A DNA stretch of 62,571 nt from Bacteroidia bacterium. GTDB taxonomy: Bacteria > Bacteroidota > Bacteroidia > Bacteroidales > UBA932. A program made the position numbers and the translations under genes. The stretch covers positions 1 through 62,571 of the forward strand of contig SABC01000008.1 in assembly GCA_009929175.1 (NCBI GenBank). Reading direction: 5' to 3'. Position 1 is the stretch's first letter, and the number at the start of each line of letters is the position of its first letter. The notes below the pieces were generated by a model. It worked only from the letters and a program-made list of their open reading frames with translations. It was not told where the DNA came from and made no database searches. This document shows positions 35,318 to 39,093 of the stretch, one piece after another.

Positions 35318-36085
35318 ATGAGAAAAATACTAATAACCAATGACGATGGAGTCAAATCCAGGGGGATCGGCATTTTAACCGAAATGATGAAGCCATACGG
35401 CGAGATAACAGTAGTTGCCCCGTTCGAAGCCCAAAGCGGTATGTCGGCAGCTCTTACTATTGGCAAACCGTTAAGGCTCACCGAGCTGAAAAGTGAAGAA
35501 AACCTCAGGATATATGCTTGTTCAGGCACACCGGCAGATTGTGTAAAGATGGCCATGAACCAGTTGTTCAGTGATCAAGCTCCTGATTTATTGGTTTCCG
35601 GAATAAACCATGGCTCTAATGCTGCAATCGCATCGCTCTATTCGGGAACCCTGGGGGCTGCGGCCGAGGGAACGGTTTACGGAATCCCCTCAATTGGTTT
35701 CTCGATGGCATCCCACGACCTCGAAGCCGATTTCAGCGGTGCAATTTTTTACGGGAAACTCATCATCGACAATTTTTTGAAAAATCCAACCGTGCCAGAC
35801 ACATACCTTAATGTCAATTTCCCTCCTTTACCCAAGGATGAGGTAAAAGGCATCCGGTTTTCGCACCAAGGAAGAGGCCAGTGGATCAAGGAATTTGAAC
35901 AACGTAAAGACCCATACGGTTTTGACTACTTCTGGATGACCGGAGAATTCTTCAACATTGAGCCCGAGGATGGTACTGCCGACCACAACCTGGTGGCAAA
36001 CAATTACATCAGTATTGTACCACACAAAATAGACACTACCGACTACAATGAGATAGAACGGTTGGAAAAACTCTGGAAACTCTGA
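35318..36085 (+). CDS. surE: 5'/3'-nucleotidase SurE
   Basis: Metal-dependent nucleoside monophosphatase, a stationary-phase survival protein. The 255-aa sequence begins with the metal-binding ILITNDDGVKSRGI. VVAPFEAQSGMSAALT and VSGINHGSNAAIASLYSGTLGAAAEG follow (given here as VSGINHGSNAA and YSGTLGAAAEG), containing the metal-ligand Ser and Asn. It ends 7 bp before lpxB, and surE-lpxB adjacency is common in Bacteroidota. A TAACTTCG near-match to the -7 box lies at about 35281-35288. It probably starts a long plus-strand operon reaching at least to the UbiD gene. Confidence 0.96.
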   Translation: MRKILITNDDGVKSRGIGILTEMMKPYGEITVVAPFEAQSGMSAALTIGKPLRLTELKSEENLRIYACSGTPADCVKMAMNQLFSDQAPDLLVSGINHGSNAAIASLYSGTLGAAAEGTVYGIPSIGFSMASHDLEADFSGAIFYGKLIIDNFLKNPTVPDTYLNVNFPPLPKDEVKGIRFSHQGRGQWIKEFEQRKDPYGFDYFWMTGEFFNIEPEDGTADHNLVANNYISIVPHKIDTTDYNEIERLEKLWKL

Positions 36086-36092
36086 TTACATC

Positions 36093-37718
36093 ATGAAATA
36101 CTACATCATAGCAGGAGAGGCTTCGGGGGACCTGCATGGATCCAACCTGATGAAAGGGCTCAAGGTCGCCGACCCCGAGGCCCGGTTCAGGTTTTGGGGT
36201 GGTGACTTTATGCTTGCCCAAGGGGGTGAGTTGGTCAGGCATTACAAAGAGACAGCCGTAATGGGGTTTGTAGAAGTCTTGGGTTCTCTCGGCAAAATCG
36301 CCTCCAATCTCAAGCTGTGCAAAAAGGACCTGGCGGAATACAATCCCGACATTGTGATCCTTATAGACTACCCAGGTTTTAACTTCAGGATAGGTGAATA
36401 TGCAAAAGAGAATGGTTACAAGGTTTTCTACTATATTGCACCAAAGGTATGGGCCTGGAAAGAGGGTCGGGTAAAAAAACTTAAGAAATTCACCGACCGG
36501 CTTTTCATTATATTCCCCTTCGAAATTGAATATTTCCGCAATCACGGAATTGAGGCTGTTTACCGTGGGAATCCCCTGCTTGATTCGGTAAGCGGTCATA
36601 AATTCAGGGACGAAGGATTGGATGAATTCAGGAAACGCAACTCAATAGGCGAAAAACCAATTATCGGACTCCTTCCCGGAAGCAGGATGATGGAGATAAA
36701 ATACCTGATGCCCAGAATGGTCAAACTGGAAAAAGAGTTCCCAGACCATCAGTTCCTTTTGGCAGGAGCCCCCTCAATAGCTCCCGAAGTTTATTACAGG
36801 TATCTGCAAGGCACCAATATCCGGGTACTTACAGGAGAGGCGTATTCAATAATGAAACATGCTAAGGTCACCGTTTTGGCATCCGGCACCGCAAGCCTGG
36901 AGGCAGCCCTTTTGGATTCGCCGCAGGTGGTGTGTTACGGAGGGAACGAAATCTCCTACCAGATTGCCAAAAAGGTTGTCAAGGTAAAGTATGTGAGCTT
37001 GGTAAACCTGATTTTGGACCAGCCTCTGGTAAAGGAACTTTTGCAACACGACTGTACTGTTCAAAACATTGCCAGGCAGGTAAATCTTCTGCTGGAACCT
37101 AAAGAGAGGGAAAAAGTGCAAAAGAAATATTCAAAGCTGAGGAAGATACTGGGTGGAGAGGGTGCCTCCTTGAAAGTGGCAGAAGCCATGGTGGAAGAGT
37201 ACAACAAAATCGTGTCACTCCAAAGGTTCCACTGTACTGTGGAATCCCCCATAGGCAAATTGCTTCTTACCTCGGACAACGACTCCCTATTATCGGTTTC
37301 ATATACCGACAATGAGGAGCAAAACAATCAGGACCAGACCCTTCCGCAGGTTTTGAAGGAGGCCGGACGTCAACTGGCTGAGTACTTTGCAGGAGAGAGG
37401 GAAACATTTGATCTCCCCCTTAATCCACATGGCACCGATTTCCAGCTCAAGGTTTGGGAAAAACTAAGGGAAATCCCATTCGGTAAAGTTAAAAGCTACG
37501 GAGAGGTGGCAGCACTTATAGGTGACAAAGATGCCAACAGGGCTGTCGGTATGGCATGCAAATCCAACCCATTGTTAATAATAACCCCTTGCCACAGGGT
37601 AATCGGGGCAAACAATAAATTGACAGGTTTTAATATTGGACTGGATAAAAAAAGTTATCTCCTCAATCTCGAAAAAGTGACACTTAACGGGGATGGAGAC
37701 CTTTTTACGGGGGAATAA
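36093..37718 (+). CDS. lpxB: Fusion of lipid-A-disaccharide synthase (LpxB) and methylated-DNA--protein-cysteine methyltransferase
   Basis: One uninterrupted 541-codon frame encodes two complete enzymes. Residues 1 to about 374 are LpxB (GT19), which joins UDP-2,3-diacylglucosamine and lipid X: IIAGEASGDLHGS at the N-terminus, IDYPGFNFRI, YYIAPKVWAWKEGR, IIGLLPGSRMMEI and LASGTASLEAAL. Residues about 377-535 are an Ogt/MGMT repair protein: VESPIGKLLLTSD, GTDFQLKVWEKLREIPFGKV, NRAVGMACKSNPL, and the methyl-acceptor Cys500 in TPCHRVIG. The linker is only a few residues, and no frameshift signature is visible. An in-frame GTG (37212) or ATG (37188) might allow separate MGMT expression. It lies 7 bp after surE and 16 bp before dapF. 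Confidence 0.9.
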   Translation: MKYYIIAGEASGDLHGSNLMKGLKVADPEARFRFWGGDFMLAQGGELVRHYKETAVMGFVEVLGSLGKIASNLKLCKKDLAEYNPDIVILIDYPGFNFRIGEYAKENGYKVFYYIAPKVWAWKEGRVKKLKKFTDRLFIIFPFEIEYFRNHGIEAVYRGNPLLDSVSGHKFRDEGLDEFRKRNSIGEKPIIGLLPGSRMMEIKYLMPRMVKLEKEFPDHQFLLAGAPSIAPEVYYRYLQGTNIRVLTGEAYSIMKHAKVTVLASGTASLEAALLDSPQVVCYGGNEISYQIAKKVVKVKYVSLVNLILDQPLVKELLQHDCTVQNIARQVNLLLEPKEREKVQKKYSKLRKILGGEGASLKVAEAMVEEYNKIVSLQRFHCTVESPIGKLLLTSDNDSLLSVSYTDNEEQNNQDQTLPQVLKEAGRQLAEYFAGERETFDLPLNPHGTDFQLKVWEKLREIPFGKVKSYGEVAALIGDKDANRAVGMACKSNPLLIITPCHRVIGANNKLTGFNIGLDKKSYLLNLEKVTLNGDGDLFTGE

Positions 37719-37734
37719 TATAAAACAAATTGAA

Positions 37735-38607
37735 ATGAAGTTAAAAGTCAGTAAGTACCAAGGAGCAGGTAACGATTTTGTAATTCTGGACAACAGGGAT
37801 GGTTTGGCAAACCTTTCCAGGGAACAGATCAAATTACTTTGCGACAGAAGGTTCGGAGTCGGAGCTGATGGATTGATGTACTTGAACGCCAGTAACAAGT
37901 ACGACTTTTCCATGAAGTATTTCAACTCAGACGGAAACGAAGGCACTATGTGTGGCAACGGAGGCAGATGCCTTGTAGCTTTTGCAGCCCACAAAGGCAT
38001 AAAAAAGTATCGTTTCGATGCAATTGACGGAGAGCATATCGGGAAGGTATACAAATACTCGCCATCTGTCTCCGATGTAGAAATCAGAATGATTGATGTC
38101 CATGGCATCAAGGAGCACTCTCCAAAAAGTTTCTATCTTAACACCGGTTCGCCCCACCTTGTCATATTTGTGGATAACCTCAAGGATTACGATGTTGATA
38201 ACAACGGTAAGCTTTGGCGGCACCACCAGGTTTTTCCCGGTGGTACTAATGTCAATTTTGTACAGGGAAACTGGGGGAAAGACTCCTCGGGATGGAGCCA
38301 GTCCCTTGAACCTGGCAGCTCCCTTGAACTCTCTGTCAGGACCTACGAACGAGGGGTTGAGGCCGAAACATTTGCTTGCGGTACAGGCATTACAGCCTCT
38401 GCAATCGCCTATCACAGACTGCTCAATAAAAACTACATAACCCGATTTGGCAAAGAGGAGTTTTACCCTGCAGATATTAAAACCCGGGTCAAGGCCATAG
38501 GGGGCGACCTTGAAGTAAATTTCCGATACCTGGGCAACGAAAAGTACTCCGATATCTTTTTAAGGGGTCCTGCCACTTTTGTATTCGAATGTGAAATCAA
38601 CATATAA
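37735..38607 (+). CDS. dapF: Diaminopimelate epimerase
   Basis: Converts LL- to meso-diaminopimelate for lysine and peptidoglycan synthesis. The N-terminus KYQGAGNDFVILDN is typical. The two catalytic cysteines are Cys73 in TMCGNGGRC and Cys215 in FACGTGITAS. The ATG at 37735 (290 aa) is chosen because the first strand starts there; the 14 codons upstream begin inside the lpxB-MGMT gene. It is slightly longer than E. coli DapF (274 aa), with an insertion around residues 175-195. It is 9 bp upstream of coaD. Confidence 0.96.
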   Translation: MKLKVSKYQGAGNDFVILDNRDGLANLSREQIKLLCDRRFGVGADGLMYLNASNKYDFSMKYFNSDGNEGTMCGNGGRCLVAFAAHKGIKKYRFDAIDGEHIGKVYKYSPSVSDVEIRMIDVHGIKEHSPKSFYLNTGSPHLVIFVDNLKDYDVDNNGKLWRHHQVFPGGTNVNFVQGNWGKDSSGWSQSLEPGSSLELSVRTYERGVEAETFACGTGITASAIAYHRLLNKNYITRFGKEEFYPADIKTRVKAIGGDLEVNFRYLGNEKYSDIFLRGPATFVFECEINI

Positions 38608-38616
38608 TCCTGATTT

Positions 38617-39093
38617 ATGAAAACAGCTGTTTTTCCCGGTTCTTTCGATCCTTTCACCCTTGGACACCTGGATGTGCTCACCTCTGCACTCAAACTTTTT
38701 GACAAAATCATCGTTGCAGTAGGTTTCAACGTTCAAAAAGCCGGATATTTTAGTGTAGAAGAGCGAGTCAGGATAATTAAAGAGTCCGTCAAAGGAATGG
38801 AAAACATTGTTGTGGACAGCTACAGCGGGCTAACCATAGATTACTGCAATAAGGCCGGGGCCGGATTCATTGTCAGAGGCCTAAGGACAACCACCGATTT
38901 TGAGCTGGAAAGGGTAATTGCCCAAGCCAATTATAAGATGAATCCCGATATTACAACGGTATTCATTCCTTCTGGGCCCGAATTTGCATTCATTACCTCG
39001 ACTGTAGTCAGGGATGTCTTGGTAAATGGTGGATGCATCGACTCATTCATGGCAAAAGGGGTAAAAATAGAACGTAATGAAAAGAATCTTTAA
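38617..39093 (+). CDS. coaD: Pantetheine-phosphate adenylyltransferase
   Basis: Fourth step of coenzyme A synthesis, transferring AMP to 4'-phosphopantetheine. The 158-aa nucleotidyltransferase fold has the HxGH-class motif GSFDPFTLGHLDVL near the N-terminus, IVRGLRTTTDFELE for substrate binding, and a C-terminal ISSTxxR-like segment (FITSTVVRDVL). It overlaps the next gene by 17 bp. Confidence 0.96.
   Translation: MKTAVFPGSFDPFTLGHLDVLTSALKLFDKIIVAVGFNVQKAGYFSVEERVRIIKESVKGMENIVVDSYSGLTIDYCNKAGAGFIVRGLRTTTDFELERVIAQANYKMNPDITTVFIPSGPEFAFITSTVVRDVLVNGGCIDSFMAKGVKIERNEKNL

Follow-up and report, generated by a model that had tools for sequence, protein, structure and literature searches.

In Ada, an MGMT domain lies in one chain with another domain, the protein also comprising an AdaA methyl-phosphotriester domain and an AraC-type regulator. 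LpxB of Escherichia coli, a GT19 enzyme, is a C-terminally swapped dimer. Further fusions are described in passages of a 2023 review (PMC10779285), namely AGT-EndoV of Ferroplasma and Caenorhabditis elegans AGT-2, which carries a histone-like part. The gene analysed here resembles Ada, AGT-EndoV and AGT-2 in that an MGMT is chained to another domain, but whereas in those proteins the other domain works on DNA, chromatin or transcription, LpxB is an envelope lipid glycosyltransferase. With E. coli LpxB (PDB 5W8N, 5W8S and 5W8X) the fusion shares the family match, the catalytic and UDP-binding residues and the fold identified by Foldseek, but it bears approximately 165 further C-terminal residues, which are an MGMT. 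With Mycobacterium tuberculosis OGT (PDB 4BHB and 4WXC) it shares both MGMT domains, six active-site residues and a C-terminal LF, but its MGMT is not free, the end of LpxB adjoining its N-terminus. A search of the open-access literature found no description of an LpxB-MGMT fusion, which fits the view of the original prediction that such a protein was undescribed.

Results

In the window (the whole stretch of DNA analysed, 62,571 nucleotides), the lpxB-mgmt gene occupies positions 36093 to 37718 of the + strand, a frame of 541 codons that is open from ATG to TAA without internal stop. The original prediction read this frame as full-length LpxB followed by a full MGMT, and Pfam bears this out with three matches above their curated cut-offs: LpxB at residues 4-359 (E 9e-87), Methyltransf_1N (PF02870) at 382-444 (E 1e-9) and DNA_binding_1 (PF01035) at 449-529 (E 3e-30), the last two giving the two-domain build of MGMT/Ogt, N-terminal ribonuclease-like and C-terminal DNA-binding. 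The protein also belongs to the NCBIfam lpxB equivalog TIGR00215 (261.2 bits against a cut-off of 190.25) and scores 103 bits against the ogt superfamily (cut-off 46). Pfam found neither of the Ada-type domains (AdaA methyl-phosphotriester, AraC-type regulator) in it, and it is not a member of the Ada type. Among solved structures, the best sequence match of the first half is 5w8n, E. coli LpxB (residues 5-338, E 1e-44), and that of the second is 4wxc, M. tuberculosis OGT (residues 380-538, E 5e-34). On the + strand, the LpxB (GT19) part comprises residues 1-376 (36093 to 37220), as judged by Pfam and alignment to E. coli LpxB, and the MGMT part residues 377-529 (37221 to 37679), as judged by Pfam and aligned active-site residues. 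The junction (37164 to 37247, + strand) leads in the model from the final helix of LpxB (358-376) through two residues into the first strand of MGMT (379-385), and a C-terminal tail of low confidence (530-541; 37680 to 37715, + strand) contains L537 and F538, as seen in the model and in tail comparison. The positions given earlier for Cys500 in TPCHRVIG, for ATG 37188 (codon 366) and for GTG 37212 (codon 374) are correct.

The window comes from a draft genome (342 contigs, contamination 6.6%), which would favour an assembly chimera or annotation artefact as the source of the fusion. Against this, the fusion is found in 35 genomes of three genera, including two, G010 and G011, that are single-contig assemblies, and an artefact, to which we assign virtually no probability, is refuted by these relatives. 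In g1, the genus of the window (25 genomes), 22 genomes have the full fusion; one (G005) has LpxB alone, and two, 82% and 76% complete, have no match. Full-length homologues that align to both LpxB and MGMT at 53-74% identity are present in the 21 other g1 genomes with the fusion and contain no stop, which rules out chance and a missed stop between the domains and supports a join of few residues, in frame and free of frameshift. Another genus of the same family, g37, has the fusion in 12 of 13 genomes, 10 times at full length, once split by a contig end (G139) and once with a frame break inside LpxB (G168); the thirteenth, 82% complete, has no match. The single genome of g28 (G051) carries it on two contigs, covering profile positions 1-258 and 221-548. 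Sequence identity ranges from 40 to 74% across the three genera. Among the 80 of 593 places kept from a search with two LpxB peptide patterns, at least three fusion loci bear a name, each from a metagenome assembly: Bacteroidales bacterium C8_concoct.bin.51 (identity 65%), Bacteroidales bacterium AS06rmzACSIP_227 (identity 43%) and Bacteroidetes bacterium ADurb.Bin139 (identity 42%). LpxB-MGMT is a real, conserved fusion in a group of Bacteroidales.

Its range appears narrow within the scans made, the first pass of which scored at most three candidates per genome. In the family (398 genomes, 25 genera) a profile of the fusion gave 35 matches at E <= 1e-185, namely 34 fusions and the LpxB alone of G005, and at this cut-off none of the other genera had a fusion outside g1, g28 and g37; G051 is absent from these matches because its fusion is split. 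In the order (393 genomes) the fusion was seen only in three sampled g1 genomes among the approximately 150 best matches listed, the next match after these stopping at profile position 379; one borne by a very divergent LpxB may have ranked too low for this list. In the phylum (395 genomes) only the genome of the window itself passed E <= 1e-165, and this cut-off, like that for the family, would miss broken or very divergent fusions. In 34 of the 35 fused genomes, some of them incomplete, the fused MGMT is the only PF01035 match at E <= 0.001, and G012 has a second on another contig.

In the window, surE lies directly upstream of the fusion in an operon-like arrangement (35318 to 36085, + strand), and dapF directly downstream (37735 to 38607, + strand; its start was picked from the sequence, the mechanical open reading frame beginning at 37693), followed by coaD (38617 to 39093, + strand); surE and coaD were placed by the list of open reading frames and by comparison of neighbourhoods. 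All six g1 loci checked, that of the window included, share the order GAPDH (on the other strand), surE, lpxB-mgmt, dapF, coaD, and dapF and coaD also stand behind the fusion on the g28 piece. Among 25 unfused loci of the family, 11 have surE-lpxB-dapF, six have surE before lpxB with dapF not found, and in eight neither gene adjoins. G005, a member of g1, has GAPDH-surE-lpxB-dapF-coaD (L048:3314-4453), in which a TGA closes LpxB after 380 residues and mgmt is absent; its free MGMT is encoded on a different contig and falls in another clade of the MGMT tree. The unfused LpxB of G005 may represent the old state or a reversal. In g37 (L034-L045), dnaN, encoding the beta clamp, lies directly behind the fusion in all 12 loci (domains confirmed for L042), with a DnaQ-like exonuclease behind dnaN in all 11 that reach that far, and this gene run unites lipid A synthesis, alkylation repair and the sliding clamp. 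In G056, a genome of g33, the order is surE, free mgmt, dnaN and dnaQ (L160:135-2549), the best LpxB match being weaker and on another contig; in at least one genome mgmt therefore stands, unaccompanied by lpxB, where g37 has the fusion, and this arrangement may either precede the fusion or be what is left of it. Genomes of g25, g33, g35 and g40, and four of five tested in g29, have only a divergent LpxB where one was listed, scoring approximately 145-235 bits compared with 553 for G052, and the gene may have been replaced there.

A rival explanation is that the fusion is purposeful, LpxB as a peripheral membrane protein holding MGMT close to the replisome or at the inner membrane, so that it would meet lesions early; tethering to the membrane was also raised in the original prediction. 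We consider this rather unlikely. It would accord with the retention of the fusion, there mostly the sole MGMT, in three genera, with the invariant length of the junction described below, with the gene order of g37 and G056, and with a C-terminal LF or IF in all 35 fusions (LF in 34, IF in one). The review cited above (PMC10779285) reports co-precipitation of human AGT with the PCNA clamp, and this was the only related statement in the literature searched, which offered nothing usable on a bacterial link between clamp and MGMT. However, the gene behind the fusion is dapF rather than dnaN in every g1 and g28 locus checked (the window, five further g1 loci and one of g28), and UbiD and the other partners in the sister fusions presented below suggest no common purpose. 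The clamp-binding motif is given as Q-phi-x-[L/M]-[F/L] in a section of PMC11139829, and none of the 35 fusion tails has a Q four residues before the F. As a canonical beta-clamp-binding motif the tail was rejected, the Gln being missing and only the last two places resembling the motif. The Y-family polymerase of G078 has QQLDLF. An LF tail is also present in six of 33 other MGMT sequences, including one UbiD fusion and the IFF end of G005, and M. tuberculosis OGT has LF at residues 163-164 of 165. The tail of the latter moves on DNA binding, according to a portion of PMC5751216, and the LF of the fusion may thus serve the MGMT fold.

Trees of the two halves were built from sequences chosen from match lists, the LpxB tree with 25 unfused family loci, G005 and seven loci of the order beside the fusions, and the MGMT tree with the 33 other MGMT sequences. 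In the LpxB tree g37 is one clade (100/100) and g1, g28 and G005 group together (85/93) on a poorly settled backbone; in the MGMT tree g1 (with g28) and g37 form tight clades, and the two half-trees disagree on the backbone. A single group of all fusions was not rejected by LpxB (p-AU 0.332 with G005 free, 0.229 with G005 outside) or by MGMT (p-AU 0.418), and a g1 and g28 group without G005 gave p-AU 0.296 in the LpxB tree. An identical junction of 22 residues favours one origin, short of proof, whereas dapF downstream in the g1 and g28 loci checked and dnaN in g37 require either a rearrangement or two events.

Both halves retain their active sites. Residues E9, S11, D92, S197, R198, T266, E270 and N305 are identical in all 32 aligned full-length fusions and align to E15, S17, D98, S200, R201, T277, E281 and N316 of E. 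coli LpxB, the first seven of which are catalytic or UDP-contacting residues according to the relevant part of PMC5785501; at the position of a further contact residue, E. coli P198, 13 of the 32 have P and 19 have A. MGMT residues Y469, R483, N492, C500, H501 and E527 are likewise identical in 32 of 32, and their roles are supported by an excerpt of PMC4605297 for the Arg finger and the Cys. Unfused LpxBs of the family are all 370-396 residues long (n=26), and the fused LpxB has therefore lost little or nothing. In the MGMT half we take the conserved set to represent the PCHR active site, the Asn hinge, the Arg finger, and the Glu and Tyr of the family. In 16 close pairs (NG86), some saturated at silent sites and thus without a ratio, dN/dS is 0.03-0.13 for LpxB (14 pairs with finite dS), 0.00-0.14 for the MGMT C-domain and 0.02-0.20, where finite, for the MGMT N-domain; the short junction and tail are looser, reaching 0.47 and 0.90 in single pairs. 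These ratios indicate that purifying selection is acting on both halves of the protein.

The distance from M366 to G388 is 22 residues in all 32 full-length fusions, while a loop of the MGMT N-domain varies in length by approximately 13 residues. In the structure model, a monomer, a helix (358-376) is followed by the first MGMT strand (379-385), with block confidence of 95, 83 and 77 across the join; because a large part of the MGMT half is at low confidence, use of the model was confined to the fold of LpxB and to secondary structure. Its top Foldseek matches are 5w8s, 5w8n and 5w8x, all E. coli LpxB. It superposes on 5w8s with a large rmsd, which would fit a monomer model of a C-terminally swapped dimer.

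A suicide cysteine on the same chain as an envelope enzyme, across a short junction of fixed length, could also act as a trigger, alkylation of Cys500 destabilising the MGMT half and dragging LpxB into degradation or misfolding, so that damage would slow lipid A synthesis. Alkylated hAGT and SsOGT are indeed destabilised and degraded, as stated in part of PMC4605297, but the cell would pay heavily if each lesion took an LpxB with it, and degradation may be limited to the C-terminal domain; we consider this course of events improbable. That LpxB-MGMT thereby links genome damage to envelope synthesis, suicide alkylation being a one-shot fuse that removes or inhibits LpxB and slows lipid A synthesis, seems quite improbable.

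The gene might alternatively give two products, the full fusion and a free MGMT made from an internal start or by proteolysis, and the original prediction had offered ATG 37188 and GTG 37212 as such starts. An in-frame ATG at codon 366 is present in 31 of 32 fusions, but a Met equivalent to 366 was read by eye in 19 of 26 unfused LpxB tails as well, and the 20 bases before ATG 366 are 50% A+T, close to all internal Met codons (51%) and well below the 73% before lpxB starts. Shine-Dalgarno-like words precede none of 31 ATG 366 codons and two of 32 lpxB starts, and since they are rare before lpxB too they are no guide here. We thus found no signal for an internal start, and two products have in our estimation only a slim chance.

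Discussion

We favour, with a probability of roughly 60%, the explanation that LpxB-MGMT is stable and bifunctional, a single chain whose two activities are independent of each other and which would have arisen by loss of the stop between adjacent genes. In the proposed scheme, mgmt would have come to adjoin lpxB, after which the lpxB stop and a short gap were presumably lost, both partners being retained over essentially their entire length. The operon-like surE-lpxB-mgmt-dapF unit would now yield a single LpxB-MGMT polypeptide, of which the LpxB half, a C-terminally swapped dimer at the inner membrane, would make lipid A disaccharide and the C-terminal MGMT half would strip O6-alkyl groups from DNA via its suicide cysteine. 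Supply of the repair protein would be tied to that of LpxB, and no direct coupling of the two reactions would be needed. In support of a bifunctional protein are the intact active sites, purifying selection, the sole MGMT in 34 of 35 genomes and the same gene order, unfused, in G005. Against its simplest form, the junction is invariant in length at 40-74% identity while the MGMT N-domain loop varies, and none of the 12 fusion-bearing g37 genomes has reverted to two genes. The invariant junction suggests that the placing of the domains may matter, which a neutral tether would not need, yet it is bordered by secondary structure on either side. A simple reading as two activities accounts least well for this constant length and for the C-terminal LF.

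The family contains four other kinds of end-to-end fusion of LpxB or MGMT. A UbiD-family menaquinone decarboxylase is fused in frame to a C-terminal MGMT in two g29 genomes (G070, L261:934-3156, + strand; G052, L191:1891-4206, - strand; 741 and 772 residues). A 719-codon open frame opposite the first of these (L261:931-3090, - strand) is probably a shadow of its codon use. LpxB is fused in frame to HydG, an [FeFe]-hydrogenase maturase, in two g38 genomes (G095, L262:1180-3903, + strand; G169, L263:1083-3806, - strand; 908 residues). MGMT is also joined to an HhH-GPD glycosylase (G161, L167:1483-2628, - strand, with a near-copy in G098) and to a GNAT acetyltransferase (G084, L164:574-1806, + strand). 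UbiD-MGMT and LpxB-HydG, each known from at least two genomes, have one partner, the end-to-end build and the genome family in common with LpxB-MGMT, but differ in the other partner. With partners so mixed, no special link of DNA repair to lipid A need be assumed, and the UbiD-MGMT and LpxB-HydG fusions argue for general fusion tolerance more than for such a link. The fusion described originally stands, and a special link is weakened by the relatives' other fusions of both partners.

Over three genera, one chain joins a step of lipopolysaccharide assembly to what is, in nearly all of these genomes, the sole MGMT found. Naming this protein after one half in annotation would hide the other. UbiD-MGMT and LpxB-HydG extend it to a natural series on when neighbouring genes fuse and why fusions stay. 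If both halves of LpxB-MGMT work, each repair event would spend a protein that also makes lipid A, and the fusion would test whether joining unrelated enzymes in one polypeptide can come free of cost.
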